The position numbers were made by a program, and so were the translations under genes. From Pseudochryseolinea flava (GTDB lineage Bacteria > Bacteroidota > Bacteroidia > Cytophagales > Cyclobacteriaceae), in NCBI RefSeq assembly GCF_003286915.1, contig NZ_QMFY01000021.1, forward strand, positions 1 to 64,000: DNA of 64,000 nt. The letters run 5' to 3'. Shown one piece after another: positions 25,583 through 36,569 of this stretch (the first letter of the stretch is position 1; each line of letters opens with the position of its first letter). The notes under the pieces were generated by a model. That model saw only the letters and a list, made by a program, of their open reading frames with translations, was not told the origin of the DNA and made no database searches.

Positions 25583-28500
25583 TTAAAACTTTAGCTGTAA
25601 ACCAGCGATTAATTGAAGTGACGATGGATAGTAGGCCAATGATGTGTTGATTCCGGGCGACAAACCGTTCACATTTACAAGTTCCGGATCTCCACCCGTA
25701 AATTTGGTGAACGTATACAAGTTCCGCCCAGTGAAGTATACCCTTGCCGACGAAATGAACTTTACCGGCGCGCTAAAGTTGTAGCTCAGCGTAACGTTAT
25801 CAATCTTAACGTAGTCCCCTTTCTCTAAGAAATAATCAGACAGCGATGAATATGTTTCTTCGTTTGTAAGCGCGGAATATTTTCCACCATCGTAAGCTGT
25901 TGACAACACATTAACACCTTTTTGTGTTGCTGGTGTTCCGATGAAATAGGCTGTCGTATTGTAGAGATCAAATCCAAAAGCACCGCGTAGAAATACGCTA
26001 AGTGTAAAACTTCCGTACGAAAAATTATTACCAAGACCAGCTGTAAATTTTGGAAGACCATTTCCAACATAACGTCTATCATCCGCTTTGGCTGTATTCG
26101 CCGGAATCACCTCACCAGCTTTGTCATACACCAATAGCCTTCCCGTTGCGTCTACACCAGCTGACTTCCACATGTAGAAGCTACCGATTCGTCTGCCCTC
26201 TTCTAAGCGTTGTGCGTTCAAACCTGAACTCCCCATACCTCCGAGGCCAGCGATGTCTTGATAGTTGTTTCCTTTATAAAGGTCGTTGGAAAATGAAATG
26301 AATTTATTGTTGTTTGTCGCCCCAGCAAATGAAATGGTATACTGAAATTTATCAGAGGTATACGCTTGTGCGTCGAGTTGTATCTCAACACCAGAATTTT
26401 TCATTGTTCCTACGTTAACATAGGTTTGGCCTTGCACATTGGGTGGTACGGGCACATTGTAAAAACCGAGCAGATCTTTATTGGTCCGTGAAAAATAATT
26501 GACCGTCCCTGAGATTTTGCTTTCAAACAGTTCAAAATCCAAGCCGACATTAAAGTTCTCAGCTTTTTCCCAGCGAAGATCTGTGTTAATATTTTGACTT
26601 GGCCCCCATACTTGATAATAGGTGTTCTGGTATGCATAAAATCCGTATCCAGAGTAGGTATCCAACGACAAGTAATTACCAAAATCTTGATTCCCCGTTA
26701 CACCAAAGTCGGCACGCAATTTCAAATCTTCAATCGCATCAATCTTCGGGAAGAATGATTCATTGATAATGCGCCACCCGACAGATACGCCTGGAAAACT
26801 TCCCCATTTATTTCCTGCACCAAATCGTGACGATCCCTCGCGGCGCAAACTTGCAGAAACATAGTATCTACTCGCGTAGTCATAGGTAATACGACCGAAG
26901 AAGGCAATCAGTCGCGAATCGTTTTTGTAAGACCCCAATCTATTTTGTGGACTTTCAAGAATCCACGTTCCCGTTCCAAGGTTGTGATAAGTGAGTACAT
27001 CGGAAGGAAATTGCTCGTTTGAAGCGTTCATCCCACTACTATTAAAATAGTTAAATGAATAGCCTCCCATCACTTCTACGTCGTGATCATTAACATCGAA
27101 GTTGTAGTTACCAATCCATTCAAAAGTTTTTTGATCTGTTTTATTGTAAGCGCGCCCCGCTGTATTTCGTCCACCGTTGCTATTGATTCGTCTATTATTG
27201 GTCGACGGCGTAAAATTAAAATCAAAGAAGTCACTGGTTTGTTGCCCCAGTGTTATTTGAGAATATAGATTTTTCAAGATGTTAAGCTTGAACGAGGCAC
27301 TCCACTCAAGGTATTTCCCTTCTGATCCAGTTTGTACGGTGTTCAATTCTTCCGCAGGATTATATGCGCCGTCAAATCCCCCTTTATTCAAAACATTAAA
27401 ATATCTGCTTGGTGCTGTCTCGTCGTACACAGGAAACGTCGGATTCAAGAATAGAGATTGTGTGAATGCACCATTGGAATTATCAGATCTCATGGCCAGT
27501 GACTGTGACGACAACCCAACACTGGCGTTATCAGCGAACACATATCGTGGCGCAATCGTGACGGTTGCTTCATAAAGATCATTGGCAGATTTATGATAGA
27601 GATTCAACCGCGCTCCATACTCTTCTCTTGCCGATCGCAAGTCGAGCCCGTCCGCATCTCTATAGTCGAACGAAAGCATGTAATTTGTTGAGTTACTTCC
27701 TCCCGACAATTGCAGGGTGTGCTTATGCGATATGGCTGGTGATTTCGTAATAGCTTTGGCCCAATCGGTATCGCCGCCATAATCTGTACCACGATTATGT
27801 TTCAAGAAATCGTCTTTCGACAAAACATCTATTTTGTTCGTGAGGTAGTTAAAACTCACATAACCATCGTAGAAAGCTTGCGGTGTACTCGCACCGCGTT
27901 TCGTTGTAATCAATACAACACCATTGCTACCACGTGTACCGTAGATTGCAGATGCAGCTCCGCCTTTTAACACATCAATGGATTCAATGTCATTTTGATT
28001 TAAGTTATCAATGTTACCGCCGGGTATCCCATTGATGACAAACAACGGCCCCAGTCCTGCGTTTCGTGATGATACACCACGCAATTGAAAGTTGGGCGAT
28101 GAATTCGGATCCGCTGCCGCTGTATTGGTAATTGAAAGTCCGGCTACCTTTCCTTGTATTGCCATTAGCGCACCGTTACCGGCCACTTGCAAAATATCTT
28201 TCGACGTGAGGTGCGTTACCGTTGTCGTGATATCTTTTTTGTCTTGCGTTCCGTAACCTACCACAACCACTTCACTAAGTGATGTGATGTCGGTGATCAT
28301 CGTTACGTCAACCGTGGTTCGATTAGAGACAGCCACCTCTTGCGTTGCATAACCGATGAATGAAAACACCAATACTTCGTTGTTGGACGGTTCACCTGGG
28401 ATTTGCAAACTGTATTTTCCGCTCGCATCGGTTACAACACCAACGAGCGTACCCTTTAATATTACGTTTACACCGGGAAGGACAGCACCATCTTCATCGG

Positions 28501-28624
28501 TTACGGTGCCCGAAATGACCCGATCTGCCCGATTTTCTGCGATTACGGTTCCGGATATTGCCAGACTCAGCTGAATAGCTACAATAGTAAAAATCAAACC
28601 GCGGAGTGTCTGATGTTTTTTCAT
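25583..28624 (-). CDS. susC: SusC/RagA-family TonB-linked outer-membrane transporter (no STN)
   Basis: A 1013-residue TonB-dependent glycan importer. A signal peptide is followed by a carboxypeptidase-regulatory-like domain (ISGTVTDEDGAVLPGVNV, about 37-120), the TonB box region (VVVVGYGTQ), a plug domain with GAASAIYGTRGSNGVVLI, and a 22-strand barrel ending in LIAGLQLKF. It lacks the N-terminal STN signalling domain that the second SusC has, so it should transport but not signal to FecR. The first eight residues (MKKHQTLR) equal those of the other SusC. A conserved leader with a short upstream ORF ends 37 bp before the start. Pairs with SusD at 23844. Confidence 0.97.
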   Translation of the reverse strand: MKKHQTLRGLIFTIVAIQLSLAISGTVIAENRADRVISGTVTDEDGAVLPGVNVILKGTLVGVVTDASGKYSLQIPGEPSNNEVLVFSFIGYATQEVAVSNRTTVDVTMITDITSLSEVVVVGYGTQDKKDITTTVTHLTSKDILQVAGNGALMAIQGKVAGLSITNTAAADPNSSPNFQLRGVSSRNAGLGPLFVINGIPGGNIDNLNQNDIESIDVLKGGAASAIYGTRGSNGVVLITTKRGASTPQAFYDGYVSFNYLTNKIDVLSKDDFLKHNRGTDYGGDTDWAKAITKSPAISHKHTLQLSGGSNSTNYMLSFDYRDADGLDLRSAREEYGARLNLYHKSANDLYEATVTIAPRYVFADNASVGLSSQSLAMRSDNSNGAFTQSLFLNPTFPVYDETAPSRYFNVLNKGGFDGAYNPAEELNTVQTGSEGKYLEWSASFKLNILKNLYSQITLGQQTSDFFDFNFTPSTNNRRINSNGGRNTAGRAYNKTDQKTFEWIGNYNFDVNDHDVEVMGGYSFNYFNSSGMNASNEQFPSDVLTYHNLGTGTWILESPQNRLGSYKNDSRLIAFFGRITYDYASRYYVSASLRREGSSRFGAGNKWGSFPGVSVGWRIINESFFPKIDAIEDLKLRADFGVTGNQDFGNYLSLDTYSGYGFYAYQNTYYQVWGPSQNINTDLRWEKAENFNVGLDFELFESKISGTVNYFSRTNKDLLGFYNVPVPPNVQGQTYVNVGTMKNSGVEIQLDAQAYTSDKFQYTISFAGATNNNKFISFSNDLYKGNNYQDIAGLGGMGSSGLNAQRLEEGRRIGSFYMWKSAGVDATGRLLVYDKAGEVIPANTAKADDRRYVGNGLPKFTAGLGNNFSYGSFTLSVFLRGAFGFDLYNTTAYFIGTPATQKGVNVLSTAYDGGKYSALTNEETYSSLSDYFLEKGDYVKIDNVTLSYNFSAPVKFISSARVYFTGRNLYTFTKFTGGDPELVNVNGLSPGINTSLAYYPSSLQLIAGLQLKF

Positions 28625-28661
28625 AGATTTGAAAGGTTTTAGGTCATGTAAATGGACTAAA

Positions 28662-28697
28662 CTATCCCCTGGGGTTGAATACGACCTGCAACTTCAT
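28662..28697 (-). CDS. Upstream ORF (leader peptide MKLQVVFNPRG), copy A
   Basis: An 11-codon ORF with ATG start and TAG stop, ending 37 nt before susC. The peptide is identical to that of copy B; the one base difference between the two 36-nt ORFs (AAC versus AAT for Asn8) is synonymous. That pattern suggests the peptide sequence may matter, though two copies are too few to prove selection. No Shine-Dalgarno sequence precedes it, as is normal for this phylum. Confidence 0.55.
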   Translation of the reverse strand: MKLQVVFNPRG

Positions 28698-28750
28698 AGT
28701 CAAACCCGGGGATGCGAAAGCAGATCGGTGACGCTTCCAACGTCACCGAT
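28662..28750 (-). promoter_or_regulatory. Conserved susC leader, copy A
   Basis: An 89-nt element upstream of susC that recurs as an 89-nt copy at 34496-34584 with only about ten differences. In transcript order it has a perfect 10-bp hairpin (ATCGGTGACG / CGTCACCGAT, loop TTGGAAG; 28724-28750), a linker with ATCCCC (28708-28713), then an 11-codon upstream ORF whose last codons contain GGGGAT (28664-28669), complementary to the linker. The adjoining GGG and TTGA segments also pair with CCC and TCAA. The start of susC is 37 nt beyond the ORF. Probably a post-transcriptional control leader; mechanism unknown. Confidence 0.75.
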
Positions 28751-29117
28751 TTTTTTTGTATCATTATTTCATAGCACGATCATTTTAGTGGATTCTTTTC
28801 GAAAACAATAAACAGCACGCCAGCACACCACAAGTTGCAACGTTGTATTCACAACGGACGTGACTTAACGCTATAGTGCACAACGGCGCGCGTTTTTACT
28901 CTCCTAATTCTGAAAATATTTTTCTTCGACACCGGTCGATAACGGGATCAACAAACACCAGAGAACCGTAAAGATGCCAGACCGTTGGCCGGCCTGATAT
29001 ATATTCTCAATTCACCCAAATTGAAACCGCTGCAATGGTTGATTACCATCAATCTATTGTGACACATCAATCATCACATCGTAGTGGTTTATCGGCGCTG
29101 TTTCATTTAATCTAGAA

Positions 29118-29155
29118 GATTACTATCCAAGGAAGCTTGTACTTGGATAGTAATC
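29118..29155 (-). terminator. Strong terminator after the second SusD gene
   Basis: A perfect 14-bp stem (GATTACTATCCAAG / CTTGGATAGTAATC) with a 10-nt loop lies 15 bp beyond the susD stop at 29171; the minus-strand tail is TTCTAGATT. It separates the STN-type Sus operon from the following one. Confidence 0.85.
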
Positions 29156-29170
29156 TTTATCTAGTGCTAA

Positions 29171-31009
29171 CTATTGCCAGAAGGGATTCTGTACAAGATT
29201 CGGATTTTTATCGATCTCCGATTGTGGTACAGGGAACCAGTAGTTCTTCTTTGTGAATACGCGTTTTTGATAAACTGTTCTCTTGAAGAACGCGTTGGCA
29301 TTCCCTTCATCGTCACTCATTGCTGTACCGAAGAAGTTCATTCCTGTAAAATCAGCATTGAGTACTTGCTCACCAATTTTCCATCGTCTGATATCTGTAT
29401 AGCGAATTCCCTCGCAGTTCAGCTCAACACGTTTTTCTCTCCGAATGGCCTCACGCATTTCAGCTTGACTTAAACCTTCTTCAAGGTCTGGTATCCCGGC
29501 GCGTTCGCGGATAAGATTCACGTATTTAAGAATGTCTGCATTTCCAGGATCTGATTCGTTAAGTGCTTCTGCATAGTTGAGGTATGCTTCACCCAGGCGA
29601 TATAAAATACCTGGTCGATATGGATTTGCACCACTACGACTATCGTGATCAGGATGAACTTTTTTTCTTAGAAGATAACCGTTCTGAGGAGCATCCCATG
29701 TCGGGCCACCATCCCATTCGTCTATCAGGAAACGTGTCGTACGATTCTCCCGGCGATGCCACGCGCGATTATACAAAACCGAAATATAAAATCGTGGCTC
29801 GCGCTTCACATACATATTGTAGGTACCGGCAAGTGTAACTTTACCGTTGCCTTGCACTTCCTGCCACTTCGTGTTTCTAACCTCGTCAGCAGCAGAAAAT
29901 CCTTTCTCAACATAACCTGATCCAGGTGCATCGATCGGCAAACCGTTTTCCATGAAGAATGCATCCACAAGCGACTGCGTCACGCCCAATCCACCGTTAC
30001 CGCCGGTTCCTCTCGGTTGCGCATGTCTATCATACTCCCATACATTACTATTCGGTCTTGCAAACAGGATCTCTTTATTTCCGTCAGAGAATTTTTTAAA
30101 CATCATGTTCTGGTAAGAAAGAAACGGATCGATACTCGCATCATCGTTGTATTCATAGTACAGGGCGTGACCAGCTTCATGCGATTTATCAATAAGTAAT
30201 TTACACGCATCCGTTGCTCTTGTCCATTTGCTTGCGTCGTAAGCACTATTGAATAACGCTTCACCTTTGTTGTTAACAAAATTCAGGTAGTCTTCATTAC
30301 CATTTACCAAAGGGCTCGCAGCAAACAACAGCATGCGTGCGCGCACCGCCAAACACATGATAGACGTAGCGCGACCATACTTACTCGCATTCGAATACAT
30401 CGCGGGTAATTTTGTAGACAAATCAAGCAATTCTGCATCGATCCAGTTGATCACATTATCGAATGGTGTCTGACCGATGAACAATTCATCAGGTGTAGCA
30501 TTGCTGGGCGTTAATCCAGGATTGAATGGAATCACACCATACATCTCAGTCATCAACCAATAATAGTAAGCGATCAAGAAACGCGCTTCATTTCGCATCA
30601 GCGCTACTTCTTCTTCCGTCACTTTCTGCGCTGGATTTGGTTTTACATTCTCGATGAAAATATACGCCGATCGTATGCGTTTCGGCAACACATCCCAATA
30701 ATTAGGTTCGACGTTCCCGGGTGTCCAGTTGCCTTGCTGCCTATCCACAACCCACCAGCCGAATTGCGCCCATCGATGTGAAGGATTCATGTCGTCTGAT
30801 AGCGGGTCGTATCCGATGTGACGTGTAAATCCCCAATAAGGATCAGGAATACTCGCATACACTCCCGCGAGCCAATCTTCGGTCCTGATCTTATCGTTAA
30901 AGATCATCTCCATCGTCAACTGATCGTCAGGCGTTCTTTCCAAAAAGTCAGCACACGAGCCTGCGGATATCAGCACACTGACGAGTAATATATTCTTGAG
31001 AAATTTCAT
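29171..31009 (-). CDS. susD: SusD/RagB-family glycan-binding lipoprotein
   Basis: A 612-residue SusD homologue. I start it at the ATG at 31009 (MKFLKNILLVSVLISAGSCADFL), which gives a perfect lipoprotein signal; the frame is open to a GTG at 31033 that touches the susC stop codon. SusD features are LMRNEARFLIAYYYWLMTEMYG, SIMCLAVRARMLLFAASPLV, LYRLGEAYLNYAEALNES and the C-terminal REKRVELNCEGIRYTDIRRW ... WFPVPQSEIDKN. It is coupled closely to the upstream SusC with STN domain. It is longer than the other SusD here (about 572) and not a close copy, so the two pairs likely bind different glycan parts. Confidence 0.96.
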   Translation of the reverse strand: MKFLKNILLVSVLISAGSCADFLERTPDDQLTMEMIFNDKIRTEDWLAGVYASIPDPYWGFTRHIGYDPLSDDMNPSHRWAQFGWWVVDRQQGNWTPGNVEPNYWDVLPKRIRSAYIFIENVKPNPAQKVTEEEVALMRNEARFLIAYYYWLMTEMYGVIPFNPGLTPSNATPDELFIGQTPFDNVINWIDAELLDLSTKLPAMYSNASKYGRATSIMCLAVRARMLLFAASPLVNGNEDYLNFVNNKGEALFNSAYDASKWTRATDACKLLIDKSHEAGHALYYEYNDDASIDPFLSYQNMMFKKFSDGNKEILFARPNSNVWEYDRHAQPRGTGGNGGLGVTQSLVDAFFMENGLPIDAPGSGYVEKGFSAADEVRNTKWQEVQGNGKVTLAGTYNMYVKREPRFYISVLYNRAWHRRENRTTRFLIDEWDGGPTWDAPQNGYLLRKKVHPDHDSRSGANPYRPGILYRLGEAYLNYAEALNESDPGNADILKYVNLIRERAGIPDLEEGLSQAEMREAIRREKRVELNCEGIRYTDIRRWKIGEQVLNADFTGMNFFGTAMSDDEGNANAFFKRTVYQKRVFTKKNYWFPVPQSEIDKNPNLVQNPFWQ

Positions 31010-31032
31010 ACTTGCATTTATTAAGGTCTTCA

Positions 31033-34000
31033 CTAAAATTCAAGATTTACCCCAGCTGAAAAAGATTTCATGATCGGATAACGGAAACCATTATCCGTAT
31101 CAAGTTCAGGGTCCCACATTTTGAAAGAAGATAATGTGAGTAGGTTATTTCCTGTAACGAAAATACGCAACGATTTAAGGTGTGCTTTATTGGTGATGTT
31201 CATTGGCAAACTGTATCCGATCTCAATATGTTTCATGCGTAACATACTCATATCTTTTAGCCACCAAGAAGAGCGAACATTATTGTTGCTAGCCGGCGCA
31301 AATGCTAACCGCGGCCAGAATACATCTTGGCTTGGGTTATCAATTGTCCAACGGTCGTCTAACACGTTTGTATAAATATTACCCGCAGCACCACCACCTG
31401 TTCCTGGCAAGAAAAAGTTACCACCGAGTATTCGATACGTGCGTGCATTTCCTTGAAAGAAAAAGCCAAGGTCAAAATTCTTATAGCGCATATTCAAACC
31501 AAAGCCATAAACGATTTGAGGATTCTTTGTACCCTTCAAAGACGTTTGATCAGCATTGGTAATGGTGCCATCACCATTCAAATCGCTGTACTTGATATCG
31601 CCAGGACGAACAGGACCGAGTCCTGCACTTGGTAGTGTCCCTACCAAAACACCATTGTCGATATCGGCAAAGTCTTCATTCGTGTAAAGACGTTCGGCAA
31701 CATAACCAAAGTTTTGATCAACCATTTTCCCAGTGGTAGAACGATACGTTCCGATTTTCGCTGGCTCTTCGTCTTGCTCTAATATCTTATTCTTGGCGTA
31801 CGTAAATGCACCGTGCGCGGAAATAGAAAAATCTTTGGAGATCTGTTTGTTCGCATTTAACGACATATCAAAACCTTTATTCTCTACTTTACCATAGTTT
31901 GCAAATGGCGAGTTGATAAAGCCACTCGAGCTTGGTATCGTCTTACGGTTCATGAAAATATCCTTGCGCTCTTCTTTAAAGAAATCAATTTGGAGCGTTA
32001 AGCTGTTCCATAGACCAAGCTCCGCACCGAGATTTGCTTTCGTGACTGTTTCCCAGGTTAAGTTTTGTACACCGTAATCACCTTCTCTTCTTCCCGCACG
32101 AGAATAGTCGTTGTTGATCCCCCAACTGTATCCATCAGTATCTCCGATTGTAGTGATGTAAGCAAAGCGATTGATAGGACTAAAAGGTTCTGGTCCAAAC
32201 CGATCATTACCGACTTGGCCGATGGATACACGAAACTTTAATTTAGATATCGTGTTTTGCAAATCCTCCATAAAGGCTTCCTCCGATGCTACCCATCCCA
32301 ATGCTCCAGACGGGAAGAATCCAAAACGATTGCCTTTCGCTAAGTTCTCAGATCCATTAAGTCCGAAGTTGGCCTCAACAATATATTTACGTTTATAAGA
32401 ATACGAGGCGCGCGCAGCAATACCTTGAAAACGAAATGGAACTTTCGCACCATTATCGTAACTGCGTTGGTTATACAAAACGAGTCCGTCGATGTAATGA
32501 TTACCAATATTATGACTATAGCTAAGTGTACCCTCTACATAGATACTTTTGTCACCAAATTCCAATTCGTTATTGTGATCAAGAAACACCTGACCAAATC
32601 GATCGATATCGAGAATCAATGAACCGTCTTCATTTCTGCCAATGGTCGGTTTATAATAATCAGGATCTTTCCTACGCACTACACGGCTTCCGGAATATCG
32701 ATCGAAAGAAAAAACAAAACGTCCTGTAAGACCCGGCACAAGGGCATCCATATTCTGCTCGACCGAAAACAGTGATTCGATTTTACTTGAGCTTCCTCGC
32801 GCAAAACCAGTTTGCGTAGCCAGTGCCCATGGGTTCGTGCGATCTGCATTAACGCGTGGAATTTCACCACTTGAGTAGCGCGTTGGATGCACGTGGGGCA
32901 CAGTCTGAAAAGCTTGATCAAACAAGAAGTCCATCGACTGTGGTGGGCTATCTCTGTCTTGAAGGAACCCGCCTATGTTGACACGTAGCAGTGTTGTTGG
33001 CGTGACGTCGAGGTCTACGTTAGAGCGAATATTATACCGTCGAGACTTTAGTGATGAATCCCATTCTTGACTTCGGTCGCGCTCCACGATACCTTGTTCA
33101 TTAAAATATGAACCAACAATCGCATAACGCAAGAAGTTACTTCCGCCGGTGGCCGTCAAATTAACCCGTGAATTTGTTGAATGATCTTTCGTAATTGCAT
33201 CAAGCCAATTTACGTCGGGATAGAGATCGGGATCGACATTGTTGCGTGTGTTATTGATGCGTTCTTCGCTGTATGAAGGAACTTGACCTGCATCCGCCGA
33301 AATGCTATTCATCAGTTCCATGTAATCGGCAGCACCGATATACTCCGGAAGCTTAACGGGACTGGTGAAGCCTTGCTCATATCTTAATTGCACACTTGGC
33401 TTTCCTACCTTTCCACGTTTCGTGTTGATTAAGATCACACCATTGGCACCGCGTACACCATACACCGCGCTTGCTGAGGCATCTTTCAAAACGGAGAACG
33501 ATTCAATTTCGGCAGGATCAAATGTATTGAGTGATCGCTCTACACCATCAACTAATATCAAAGGTTGACGGGCTCCCTGAAAAGTCGATATACCTCGAAT
33601 CCAAAAATTAGAATCATCGTAGCCAGGTTCACCAGAACGTTGCACACCGATAATACCTGCGACCTGACCTGCAAGGTTGTTACTCATTGATCGGTTTGTT
33701 CCATACTGAAGTTGTTTCTCGACGCTAACCGTTGTAATCGCGCCCGCATTGGTATATTCCTTCTGCGTTCCATAACCGACAACGACTACTTCTCCAAGTG
33801 CGGCAACATCGGTTACCATTTTCAAATTCACAGCAGTTTGATCACCGATCAATACTTCATCTGTTCTATAACCAATAAATGAAAACACGAGAATGCTCCC
33901 TTCGTCCGCGCCGGCGATCATGAAATTTCCTTCGGAGTCAGTAACCGTTCCAATCAATGTTCCTTTGATGGTAACGTTAACACCTGGAAGTGGCGAGTCT

Positions 34001-34455
34001 TCTTCGTCGGTAACCCTTCCTGAAATTGATCGGCTGAGATCAATAAAATCATACGGTCGAACTTTGTCTCCCACCGTAGTGGACACTTGGTGTTTTACCA
34101 GAATGATATAATCTCCGGAAAGTTGATACTCTACATTCAGTGGCTGGAATATACCGTGAAGGATTTCTGACAATTTCTGATTTTTGTATTCAACAGAAAT
34201 TTTATCGTCGACGGCAATCGATTGCGGGTTATAAGCAAATTTTATTTTCGCAGATTTTTCGATCTCCAATAAAACGTGCTTAATCTTTTTACTTTCGACA
34301 TTGATCGAAATGACTTTATCCAAAACTGTTTGTCCGAAGGCATCGTCGGGCGTAGCAGTAGCCGCTCCCGACACAACAAGCACAAGCAAAATTTGAAACA
34401 GTGTAAATCTCATGATGTCAATAATCAAACATCGAAGTGTCTGATGTTTCTTCAT
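31033..34455 (-). CDS. susC: SusC-family TonB-linked transporter with STN signalling domain
   Basis: A 1140-residue TonB-dependent importer. After the signal peptide it has an STN domain (about 48-122: KVISINVESKKIKHVLLEIE ... YQLSGDYIILV), a carboxypeptidase-regulatory-like domain (SGRVTDEEDSPLPGVNV), the TonB-box region (VVVVGYGTQ), a plug (SASAVYGVRGANGVILI) and a barrel ending SAGVNLEF. The STN domain lets such transporters signal substrate binding to a FecR anti-sigma factor, and fecR and the ECF sigma gene lie immediately upstream. It is preceded by leader copy B. Its start MKKHQTLR matches the other SusC. Confidence 0.97.
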   Translation of the reverse strand: MKKHQTLRCLIIDIMRFTLFQILLVLVVSGAATATPDDAFGQTVLDKVISINVESKKIKHVLLEIEKSAKIKFAYNPQSIAVDDKISVEYKNQKLSEILHGIFQPLNVEYQLSGDYIILVKHQVSTTVGDKVRPYDFIDLSRSISGRVTDEEDSPLPGVNVTIKGTLIGTVTDSEGNFMIAGADEGSILVFSFIGYRTDEVLIGDQTAVNLKMVTDVAALGEVVVVGYGTQKEYTNAGAITTVSVEKQLQYGTNRSMSNNLAGQVAGIIGVQRSGEPGYDDSNFWIRGISTFQGARQPLILVDGVERSLNTFDPAEIESFSVLKDASASAVYGVRGANGVILINTKRGKVGKPSVQLRYEQGFTSPVKLPEYIGAADYMELMNSISADAGQVPSYSEERINNTRNNVDPDLYPDVNWLDAITKDHSTNSRVNLTATGGSNFLRYAIVGSYFNEQGIVERDRSQEWDSSLKSRRYNIRSNVDLDVTPTTLLRVNIGGFLQDRDSPPQSMDFLFDQAFQTVPHVHPTRYSSGEIPRVNADRTNPWALATQTGFARGSSSKIESLFSVEQNMDALVPGLTGRFVFSFDRYSGSRVVRRKDPDYYKPTIGRNEDGSLILDIDRFGQVFLDHNNELEFGDKSIYVEGTLSYSHNIGNHYIDGLVLYNQRSYDNGAKVPFRFQGIAARASYSYKRKYIVEANFGLNGSENLAKGNRFGFFPSGALGWVASEEAFMEDLQNTISKLKFRVSIGQVGNDRFGPEPFSPINRFAYITTIGDTDGYSWGINNDYSRAGRREGDYGVQNLTWETVTKANLGAELGLWNSLTLQIDFFKEERKDIFMNRKTIPSSSGFINSPFANYGKVENKGFDMSLNANKQISKDFSISAHGAFTYAKNKILEQDEEPAKIGTYRSTTGKMVDQNFGYVAERLYTNEDFADIDNGVLVGTLPSAGLGPVRPGDIKYSDLNGDGTITNADQTSLKGTKNPQIVYGFGLNMRYKNFDLGFFFQGNARTYRILGGNFFLPGTGGGAAGNIYTNVLDDRWTIDNPSQDVFWPRLAFAPASNNNVRSSWWLKDMSMLRMKHIEIGYSLPMNITNKAHLKSLRIFVTGNNLLTLSSFKMWDPELDTDNGFRYPIMKSFSAGVNLEF

Positions 34456-34495
34456 AAATTTTTTAGGGTTTAGGTGTATGGAAAAAGAACTAGAA

Positions 34496-34531
34496 CTATC
34501 CCCTGGGATTGAATACGACCTGCAACTTCAT
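34496..34531 (-). CDS. Upstream ORF (leader peptide MKLQVVFNPRG), copy B
   Basis: An 11-codon ORF, ATG to TAG, ending 40 nt before the STN-type susC. It encodes exactly the same peptide as copy A with one synonymous base change. Its tail overlaps the 3' arm of the predicted leader stem. Confidence 0.55.
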   Translation of the reverse strand: MKLQVVFNPRG

Positions 34532-34584
34532 AGTCAACCGAGGGATGCGTAAGCGGAATCAGTGAGGCTTCCAACATCACCGAT
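34496..34584 (-). promoter_or_regulatory. Conserved susC leader, copy B
   Basis: The second 89-nt copy, between fecR and the STN-type susC. The hairpin (ATCGGTGATG / CCTCACTGAT) keeps the loop TTGGAAG; compared with copy A it has one G-C to G-U change and one lost pair. The linker arm (AGGGAT on plus, 34541-34546) can pair with ATCCCC (34498-34503) at the end of the upstream ORF. Copy B sits entirely in the 177-nt gap after fecR, so susC could be made both by readthrough from fecR and from a promoter just before the leader. Confidence 0.75.
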
Positions 34585-34632
34585 CAAAAATTTTGTAATT
34601 GTTTATTTCATAGGCGAACTTTTAACATTAGT

Positions 34633-35709
34633 TTATTTACATCCTGCGCTATTAATGACGACGTTGGCATCAATAATCTCATACGATGCCCCGATGGTCT
34701 GACAAATTATCTTTAGTTTTTCTGTCATCGACTCTGTTCCCAATGGAACCGTTAAAAAACAGTTCTTCATGGTTTCTTCATTGAAAATAATCTCTATACC
34801 GTAGGCGTTCTCGATCTTTTTAAACACGGTGGCAATCGGTGTATTTTCAAATACAAAGTCTTCAGGTTTGATTGTGGCGTTGAGAATTTCTGGCATCTCT
34901 ACAAGTGTTTTTTCGAAAGACTGTTCTTTCCGCACATAGTTCACCTGTTGGTTAGGCAGTAGAATTACACCGTCTTTTTTCTCACCATTACTATTGCTTG
35001 TATACACGGACACTTTTCCTGTTTTTACAGCGACCAAAAAACTTGGTGTATTTGCCTGCGCTGACACACGAAAACTTGTACCCAACACCTTCACAAATAA
35101 TTCATCGGAGTGTACTATGAATGGCTTGTATGGATTGTGCGCGACGTCGAAAAAAGCTTCGCCAGACAAATACACGTTTCGGGTCGAGTCGTCGAGGTAG
35201 TTTGCCTTATACTTGAATGCACTTTTCGCTGCCAACACAACTGTACTTCCATCCTGCAACACCACGCGCTGAGCTTGATCTGTCTCGTTTACATGCTCGA
35301 CGAAATCCGATGAAACCGCAGCGTAGCTATAATATTCCAGCGATTGATTGGCATTGTGCTCTTGGGTGTAATACCAAATTGAAGTTGCAGCGCAAATAAA
35401 AATAGCGGTAGCAAGCACGAACGCGTAACTGAATTTTCTCGACTTGGACTTTGTGTTTACAGGGACTTCAACGCCAGATTCTATCTTCTTCCACATCGAT
35501 GCGACTTGTCCTGCATCATATGGCGTTTTCTCTGCATGTTTTAGATTCAGCACCAAAATTCGCGCTTTTTCAACTGTATCACGAATTTCGGGGTGCGTCG
35601 ACAAATAAAGATTCCAGTACTTCACAGCCTCCGGATCTGACTGGTTCACCCAATCAATAAAGCTGTCATTCGACGCAAAATCTTCTACATTAAACTTCGT
35701 ATAATCCAT
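34633..35709 (-). CDS. FecR-family anti-sigma factor
   Basis: A 358-residue single-span inner-membrane regulator. The N-terminal cytoplasmic part (1-93) should hold the ECF sigma factor; one membrane helix spans about 94-114 (FSYAFVLATAIFICAATSIWY); the periplasmic part has the FecR domain (QRVVLQDGSTVVLAAKSAFKY ... GEAFFDVAHNPYKPFIVHS) and a C-terminal DUF4974/STN-like domain (NTPIATVFKKIENAYGIEI ... LTVPL). It is expected to receive the signal from the STN domain of the SusC encoded just downstream. It follows the sigma gene by 63 bp. Confidence 0.95.
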   Translation of the reverse strand: MDYTKFNVEDFASNDSFIDWVNQSDPEAVKYWNLYLSTHPEIRDTVEKARILVLNLKHAEKTPYDAGQVASMWKKIESGVEVPVNTKSKSRKFSYAFVLATAIFICAATSIWYYTQEHNANQSLEYYSYAAVSSDFVEHVNETDQAQRVVLQDGSTVVLAAKSAFKYKANYLDDSTRNVYLSGEAFFDVAHNPYKPFIVHSDELFVKVLGTSFRVSAQANTPSFLVAVKTGKVSVYTSNSNGEKKDGVILLPNQQVNYVRKEQSFEKTLVEMPEILNATIKPEDFVFENTPIATVFKKIENAYGIEIIFNEETMKNCFLTVPLGTESMTEKLKIICQTIGASYEIIDANVVINSAGCK

Positions 35710-35772: not shown

Positions 35773-36369
35773 CTAACTCAAAAAAAATTTCAGGAAAATC
35801 AATAAAGATGTGACCGAGACCTTGAGGTTAAGCTTTAGCTTCTGAAGTGCGGAAAAAATGAAATTGCATGCAGATTGATAGTTCACGCCCATAATCTGAG
35901 CAACTTCCTCGTTAGAAAAATTATGAAAATAGCGAAGATTGATCGCCTCTTGCTGACGCTTCGGTAGTTGCTTAATGAGCGACCGCAAGTTCTCCATTTG
36001 CAGGGACTGAACCTCCAGGCCGATCAAATTACTCTCGTGAGAAGCATACGACAAATCGTTTTGATGATGCTCAATATCTTGCGAATGAAAGAAATTATCA
36101 GTCTTTAGTTTGCGGTAAACCTTGTAGCGAAGCGCTTTAAAAAGATAAAACTTCACGGATGTAGTATCAGAAACCCGTTCGCGATTTTGCCACAATTCAA
36201 TAAATAAATCTTGAATACTGTCCTCAATCAAAGTACGGTCAGAAGAAATTTTATTGCCGTAATTCACCAAAGCACCAACATGCGTACGATACAAAGTAGC
36301 GAAGGCTTCTTTGTCGCCGCGTTTAAATAAACGCCACACCTCGTCGTGCTGTGTATTGTAGTTGGGCAT
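35773..36369 (-). CDS. ECF-type RNA polymerase sigma factor
   Basis: A 198-residue ECF sigma factor from the ATG at 36369 (MPNYNTQHDEVW); a GTG three codons upstream is less likely. Region 2 is visible (FATLYRTHVGALVNYGNKI ... DLFIELWQNR) and region 4 (LPKRQQEAINLRYFHNFSNEEVAQIMGVNYQSACN helix-turn-helix). The last 17 residues are hydrophobic (VTSLLIFLKFFLS), a tail seen in many Cytophagales ECF factors. It should be held by the FecR protein encoded downstream and switch on the Sus genes when the glycan is sensed. Confidence 0.95.
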   Translation of the reverse strand: MPNYNTQHDEVWRLFKRGDKEAFATLYRTHVGALVNYGNKISSDRTLIEDSIQDLFIELWQNRERVSDTTSVKFYLFKALRYKVYRKLKTDNFFHSQDIEHHQNDLSYASHESNLIGLEVQSLQMENLRSLIKQLPKRQQEAINLRYFHNFSNEEVAQIMGVNYQSACNFIFSALQKLKLNLKVSVTSLLIFLKFFLS

Positions 36370-36569
36370 AAAATACACTTATTTGATTAGGACTCTGCGT
36401 TGAAAGGTAGAGCAAAAATTAATTTCTGCAAACGTTTGTCAAAAATTTTAGTGATGACCCATTCAAAATCAACCATCAACGAATGTTAATTCGCGACCGT
36501 GTGAATCGTGCTTTCGCGCATATCGCGAGCGTTGCGGATTATTTTTCTGTATGGGAATTTCTTCTTTGA

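Follow-up and report, generated by a model that had tools for sequence, protein, structure and literature searches.

What kind of element occupies the 89 nucleotides (nt) that precede each of two otherwise different susC genes in Pseudochryseolinea flava, and on which strand does it act? The two leaders lie in a 64,000-nt stretch (contig NZ_QMFY01000021.1, positions 1 to 64,000; hereafter the window), where a first-pass annotation had read them as an RNA device or a conserved leader peptide controlling glycan-transporter synthesis. Both are on the minus strand, at 28662-28750 (copy 1, W1) and 34496-34584 (copy 2, W2), and each is composed, as that annotation had described, of a 27-nt hairpin with loop TTGGAAG, a 26-nt linker and a 36-nt ATG...TAG open reading frame (ORF) coding for MKLQVVFNPRG. 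The only difference between the two ORFs is a synonymous AAC/AAT change, and the susC1 and susC2 proteins are indeed dissimilar otherwise (best local match 34% over 362 columns, plus a short match at the first residues MKKHQTLR). From the sequence evidence described below we consider it likely that the twin elements represent both strands of a DonS-like antisense-RNA module, in which an RNA predicted for copy 1 would act against susC and copy 2 would be a target.

Two features of the leaders go beyond the earlier description: the 11-codon ORF sits within a second hairpin, and the plus strand at leader 1 has a hairpin plus T-run (28724-28757). The parts of copy 1 are as follows.

28636-28757, plus strand: predicted antisense RNA of about 122 nt, its start set from the -7 box and its end formed by an intrinsic terminator (hairpin plus T-run).
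28624-28631, plus strand: antisense -7 box TAGATTTG (TAnnTTTG), overlapping the susC1 start codon.
28724-28757, plus strand: terminator hairpin ATCGGTGACG-CTTCCAA-CGTCACCGAT plus T-run, which is the hairpin of the first-pass annotation (hairpin 1) on the opposite strand.
28664-28713, minus strand: hairpin 2 of leader 1, with outer and inner stems, foldable on either strand.
28675-28703, minus strand: hairpin-2 loop region TTGACTATGAAGTTGCAGGTCGTATTCAA, the same in both copies, covering 23 of the 36 bases of the 11-codon ORF.
28662-28697, minus strand: the 11-codon ORF MKLQVVFNPRG, judged not to be a conserved peptide.
28764-28772, minus strand: mini upstream ORF (mini-uORF) ATG AAA TAA of sense leader 1.

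The box has the form of the sigma-A -7 box TAnnTTTG, which in Flavobacterium psychrophilum occupies positions -12 to -5 relative to the start site (PMC9723704). The predicted RNA faces the 5' part of a susC homologue, with the box at the start codon and the terminator 5' of the box, and its length falls within the 78-128 nt range of the DonS family (PMC7366714). The fold z-score of leader 1 is -4.7. A 23-mer core, allowing up to three mismatches, gave two matches in the window and none in each of 100 shuffles, and no further match was found in the 6.54-Mb genome beyond the two window copies. At copy 2 the corresponding parts differ.

34455-34462, plus strand: degenerate antisense -7 box TAAATTTT.
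34558-34595, plus strand: hairpin 1, followed by CAAAAATTTTG, a broken T-run; neither terminator detector used here calls a terminator.
34509-34537, minus strand: hairpin-2 loop region, the same as in copy 1 and the proposed trans target of the copy-1 RNA.
34496-34531, minus strand: the 11-codon ORF.
34603-34611, minus strand: mini-uORF ATG AAA TAA of sense leader 2.

A search of the window against Rfam gave no match at the gathering score. The best of three weak matches at a relaxed E-value, to P31 (27.5 bits against a cut-off of 40, E 0.055), was taken as a chance likeness.

Strand preference was assessed in a wider group of leaders linked to FecR genes, one of which also lies upstream of copy 2. 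The first set comprised 80 regions downstream of FecR (Pfam FecR_C; one from P. flava itself), hand-picked from the matches listed out of 285 in 14 genomes. The phylum set comprised 40 regions from 13 genomes across the phylum, hand-picked from 83 FecR matches outside P. flava. A third set held 60 further FecR-linked regions, 40 from the match list of the first set; 40 of the 60 are related to the earlier sets, and removal of relatives leaves 18 unique loci, nine with long gaps (100 nt or more). Gene starts were called mechanically from the longest ORF, and loci with a probably wrong start (among them L104, L122, L136, L166 and L181) were kept in. A symmetric detector, applied identically to the two strands, found antisense terminators in 23 of 51 long gaps of the first set, 11 of 20 of the phylum set and 19 of 42 of the third set (five of nine at unique loci), and sense terminators in none. 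Gaps under 100 nt contained antisense terminators in 0/29, 3/20 and 1/18 cases for the first, phylum and third sets, respectively. An energy-based detector applied to the first-set long gaps gave 23 of 51 antisense against no sense terminators at -12 kcal/mol, and 29 against two at -6 kcal/mol. Within the P. flava genome, the former threshold placed an antisense terminator at four of the eight STN-type susC genes (window copy 2 being among those without) and a sense terminator at none; the other 43 susC genes had one antisense (window copy 1) and two sense terminators, or three and eight at -6 kcal/mol. Separately, we note at locus L028, upstream of a susC gene that lacks a long N-terminal extension, an A-run plus the hairpin AATCG-TTGGAAA-GCGATT, at which the detector calls no terminator.

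The promoter box recurs in the same wider group. Of 59 FecR-linked or STN-type leaders, 18 have an antisense TAnnTTTG placed precisely over the start codon (sense CAAANNTATG), against two of 72 control starts (p 1e-5), and a box with four of the five specified bases was found in 33/59 against 6/72 (p 2e-9); these p values are only indicative, as the loci are partly related and the starts were called mechanically. In the third set the counts were 16/42 against 0/18, or 3/9 against 0/9 at unique loci. Around the start codons of Bacteroidota, A is preferred at -3, -6 and -11 to -15 (PMC7366714), which partly overlaps the box, and other susC starts were therefore used as the control. TAC at +13 was not enriched (17/59 leaders against 22/72 controls).

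RNA tolerates G-U pairs but not their complements, A-C, so that the types of mismatch in a hairpin reveal the transcribed strand. Using a detector that counts Watson-Crick pairs only, the 28 A-run hairpins of the first set and the P. flava loci contained 28 A-C mismatches (wobbles on the antisense strand), one G-U (a wobble on the sense strand) and six others, and 37 other hairpins contained 22, six and 17. When relatives were merged and the phylum set was added, 34 hairpins gave 28 antisense wobbles, three sense wobbles and seven other mismatches (p 5e-6). The third set, mostly of related loci, gave 17, one and two (5, 0 and 0 at unique loci). As a positive control for this test the window supplies little, three T-run hairpins having one GT and no AC and six A-run hairpins two AC and no GT.

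Few relatives of the two window copies were recovered. A covariance model built from W1 and W2 recovered both (E 1e-23 and 1e-22), the sole other match up to E 10 being the opposite strand of copy 1 (E 4.7). Across the genus, four of seven genomes, P. flava included, gave matches of E 1 or less, among them a weak one in G005 (E 0.3); this locus (L008) has the same layout and a different loop, and was left out of the six-copy analysis below. Across the family, matches were found in three of 295 genomes, again with P. flava included, all within the genus, and the 49 other susC loci of the P. flava genome (51 full-length genes less the two in the window) gave no match up to E 10. Such searches under-report, since the search across the genus missed a copy that was recovered by a pattern scan of a genome contig collection, from which the P. 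flava record itself is possibly absent. That scan gave 14 stretches, of which the model confirmed four (E below 1e-7), two each in Parachryseolinea silvisoli (Ps1 and Ps2, the latter being the copy missed) and Dawidia soli (Ds1 and Ds2). The remaining ten were taken as chance: seven had no match, and three aligned weakly and in part, at the pattern itself (E 0.08-0.9). The first-pass annotation had made its reading depend on similar elements at other susC genes; the architecture does recur there, whereas only two further species yielded confirmed sequence relatives. At copy 1 a perfect antisense -7 box (TAGATTTG, TAAATTTG and TAAATTTG) and an unbroken T-run are present in all three genomes.

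These relatives decide against one half of the original proposal. That an RNA device lies at these glycan-transporter genes is supported, but a conserved leader peptide is rejected, because the reading frame changes in the relatives: the ORFs read MKLQVVFNPRG (W1 and W2), MNCRSYPNRRG (Ps1), MNCRSYPILPG (Ps2) and MNCRSYPILPR (Ds2), and that of Ds1 has lost its stop and runs to 33 codons. A one-base difference, a deletion in the loop of the relatives, shifts the frame, so that most nucleotides are kept and the peptide is unrelated. We have therefore set aside, as very improbable, a sense-strand attenuator in which translation of MKLQVVFNPRG would control the hairpins and hence susC expression. 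The length of exactly 11 codons in five of the six copies is the best evidence in favour of the ORF, together with the single synonymous difference between the window copies, but the kept length would follow from the stem, nearly the same nucleotides are read in another frame in the relatives and one copy lacks the stop. Nor do the 51, 20 and 42 long gaps contain a sense terminator by the symmetric detector, and inspection by eye of the six copies' own leaders revealed none between leader ORF and gene.

The product with the better support is the predicted one on the other strand, and the short ORF that recurs in these leaders is a different one, the start-then-stop mini-uORF upstream of hairpin 1. 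The span from FecR (in P. flava loci, from 90 nt upstream) to hairpin 1 contains a closed ORF of up to 12 codons ending before the hairpin in 37 of 39 loci with a terminator, compared with a mean of 17.7 and a maximum of 26 in 200 shuffles. The frame was tested with the ATG nearest the hairpin at each locus, T-preceded if present (two loci have no ATG). An in-frame stop precedes the hairpin in 34/37 cases, against 10/37 and 16/37 in the shifted frames (p 5e-9), and the median length is three codons against 22 and 15. With relatives merged the counts were 29/32 against 10 and 14 (p 4e-7), for the Cytophagales part 23/25 against 6 and 10, and for the third set 18/18 against 2 and 4 (4/4 against 0 and 0 at unique loci); control susC leaders gave 13, 13 and 14 of 31. 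The phylum set alone was not significant (6/7 against 4 and 4, p 0.34), and single-codon ORFs (ATG-stop) were not enriched over shuffles (6/39; shuffle mean 3.7, maximum 10). All six copies read ATG-NNN-stop. The mini-uORF adjoins the predicted sense-antisense duplex, just outside it. Examples of these mini-ORFs (1-12 codons) before the antisense terminator are found in the FecR-downstream leaders L131, L138, L194, L209 and L212. By eye, an A/C-rich stretch resembling TAACCTAAACC lies upstream of many P. flava susC starts and many mini-uORFs, and is possibly a translation-initiation signal.

Several observations weigh against an antisense reading of the leaders. At copy 2 an intact antisense box is found in none of the three genomes and an unbroken T-run in only one, and leader 2 has a fold z-score of only -1.4. 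In the wider group, 28 of the 51 first-set long gaps lack an antisense terminator, the energy-based detector finds sense-strand candidates in 1/51 at -9 and 2/51 at -6 kcal/mol, and the phylum set alone shows five antisense wobbles to two sense. A -33 box is only weakly hinted at: TTG with a spacer of 20 nt, a distance picked post hoc, was found in 13/79 against 1/91. The six-copy family itself shows no antisense bias in its wobbles, hairpin 1 having two antisense and six sense wobble cells (two and two in the outer nine pairs, when the two loop-side pairs are dropped) and hairpin 2 seven and ten. The strand call for this family consequently rests on the T-run, the box and analogy with the wider group, and the mRNA leader is probably structured as well.

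The excess of sense over antisense wobbles in the six copies speaks for a sense-strand RNA element in the susC leader, a protein-binding site or riboswitch read directly by a protein or ligand, with the antisense signals as by-products. Both sides have changed in four of 28 pairs, a value reached by 16 of 500 shuffles, and the loop is fixed between copies. We nevertheless think such an element unlikely, given that hairpin 1 of the wider group varies by antisense wobbles, that T-run and -7 box are both on the antisense strand and that Rfam offered no match at its gathering score.

The arrangement of the locus bears on how the two copies arose. Its genes run on the minus strand in the order ECF (extracytoplasmic function) sigma factor, FecR, copy 2, susC2, susD2, copy 1, susC1, susD1, a SusE/SusF-like gene and a cytochrome c/PA14/3-keto-disaccharide hydrolase gene, so that susC2 is preceded by the ECF sigma and FecR genes and susC1 by susD2.

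35773-36378, minus strand: ECF-type sigma factor.
34633-35709, minus strand: FecR-type anti-sigma factor.
31033-34455, minus strand: susC2, with an STN-like domain (E 2e-5, 24.8 bits, under the Pfam cut-off of 28.4).
28872-28901, minus strand: candidate sense promoter GAGTAAAA-N15-CACTATA of operon 1, a single match in the window.
25583-28624, minus strand: susC1, with no STN match.

A block resembling the last-named promoter aligns in three copy-1 loci (the window, L062 and L068), with its right half changed, about 60-100 nt upstream of the mini-uORF; it is possibly the sense promoter of operon 1. In P. silvisoli, copy 2 is followed by a susC with 73% identity to window susC2, and the copy-1 leader directly precedes an orthologue of the cytochrome c/PA14/3-keto-disaccharide hydrolase gene (73% identity), with a SusE/F-like gene just upstream. 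Copy 1 of D. soli has susD2 (81%) and a SusE/F-like gene on its upstream side, and the gene that follows it aligns with this hydrolase gene too (66% over 538 columns, the gene end being outside the fetched locus). From these gene orders, copy 1 has no susC behind it in two species. At L062 (5201-5289) and L068 (1758-1844) the copy-1 leader is retained and a likeness to the first susC codons remains without an ATG, with no susC at that place.

The loop is the same between the copies within each genome (27/27, 26/26 and 26/26), while between the window and Parachryseolinea/Dawidia 23 of 27 columns are alike and four differ. In the left flank, W1 shares with Ps1 and Ds1 22 columns that differ in W2, and shares with W2 six that differ in the other two; in the loop the corresponding numbers are zero and four (p 0.006), and to the right, as far as the start codon, eight and seven. 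Given the matching gene order, the simplest reading of the sequences is an old duplication with loops evolving in concert. A functionless segmental duplication or gene conversion, in which the leader was copied together with the signal-peptide start, is a reading to which we attach hardly any weight. The likeness does run into the first susC codons, and W2 in its left flank resembles Ps2 and Ds2 (0.48 and 0.50) no more than it does W1 (0.51), which blurs the otherwise clean picture. Against it, the copies occupy matching places in three genomes and their loops are still identical, and these places, together with the grouping of the W1, Ps1 and Ds1 left flanks by place, make the duplication look old. 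A short conversion tract confined to the loop is conceivable.

That copy 2 has lost the antisense box and the T-run while keeping its leader and an identical 27-nt loop makes it most simply a target, and suggests that the copy-1 RNA may also act in trans. The antisense stretch of one copy is predicted to pair strongly with the leader of the other (W1 on W2, -177 kcal/mol; self, -255 kcal/mol); these modelled values are compatible with trans action, short gene conversion being the alternative. The shared loop could also be a DNA operator, a 29-bp imperfect dyad TTGAcTAtGA-N9-TCgTAtTCAA through which one transcription factor would control both operons, and which could coexist with an antisense RNA. 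The dyad is the same at both operons of the locus and its 23-bp core occurs nowhere else in the genome (up to three mismatches), but the adjoining stem covaries (GGGTTTG/CAAACC in Ps1, GGGATTG/CAATCC in Ps2) and the terminator and -7 box are left unexplained. We regard an operator as improbable.

Returning to the antisense module, we propose the following course of events. When glycan is absent, a sigma-A promoter with its -7 box over the susC1 start codon would transcribe the plus-strand RNA of about 122 nt (approximately 28636-28757), which would end at hairpin 1 as an intrinsic terminator. This RNA would pair with the susC mRNA leader, perhaps making first contact through the hairpin-2 loop, and would span the region 5' of the susC start, so that translation or stability falls. 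In the presence of glycan, the ECF factor would boost sense transcription and override the antisense RNA. Antisense RNAs of Bacteroides are anti-correlated with some susC genes and positively correlated with others (PMC10994844), and repression should therefore not be presumed. A bolder version, which we put forward tentatively and hold to be less probable than its negation, has copy 1 as an antisense gene turned regulator in cis and in trans, acting on its own operon and, through the co-evolving loop, on the susC2 leader with its decayed antisense promoter, and kept even where no susC lies behind it. The mini-uORF just outside the duplex and the antisense RNA would then form a general two-part translational switch, a ribosome entry site plus an antisense RNA, of which no description was found in the literature searched.

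Plasmid antisense systems with leader ORFs, such as CopA/tap and Sok/mok, likewise have an antisense RNA beside a short leader ORF and loop-first pairing. The module proposed here differs from them in being chromosomal and in having an ORF of 1-12 codons. Repression of susC by RNA near the start codon, proposed for this module, is a feature of the FopS small RNAs of B. thetaiotaomicron (PMC11697453). These form a family of 14 paralogues that have R1 seeds in common; nine are intergenic, four are antisense and one derives from a 3' untranslated region, whereas the window module, compared by the description of FopS given there, is a predicted local antisense RNA with a loop of its own. DonS and the other cis-antisense RNAs of polysaccharide utilization loci (PULs) in Bacteroides resemble it in being antisense to susC homologues of glycan-uptake loci (PMC7366714, PMC10994844, PMC9723704), and RNAs of this kind are reported to hold such genes in check in gut Bacteroides. 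ECF/anti-sigma pairs typically govern host-glycan loci, and the mechanism of DonS is called unknown (PMC11697453). In the literature consulted, PUL antisense RNAs on susC are described for Bacteroides only (PMC11697453); our analysis predicts, at the level of sequence, an antisense RNA of the DonS type in Cytophagales, and in the literature searched we found neither the layout of start-codon box and mini-uORF nor paired copies with matching loops. The sequence rule (start-codon -7 box, antisense terminator beginning about 58-124 nt upstream of the start, mini-uORF) could be used for candidate annotation in other Bacteroidota, the twin locus is a natural test for trans action of such RNAs and the mini-uORF provides a handle on their mode of action. 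Compared by layout and length, then, the module departs from DonS in its occurrence in Cytophagales, in the -7 box on the start codon, in the mini-uORF, in the second leader with the same loop and in that its RNA is a predicted one.

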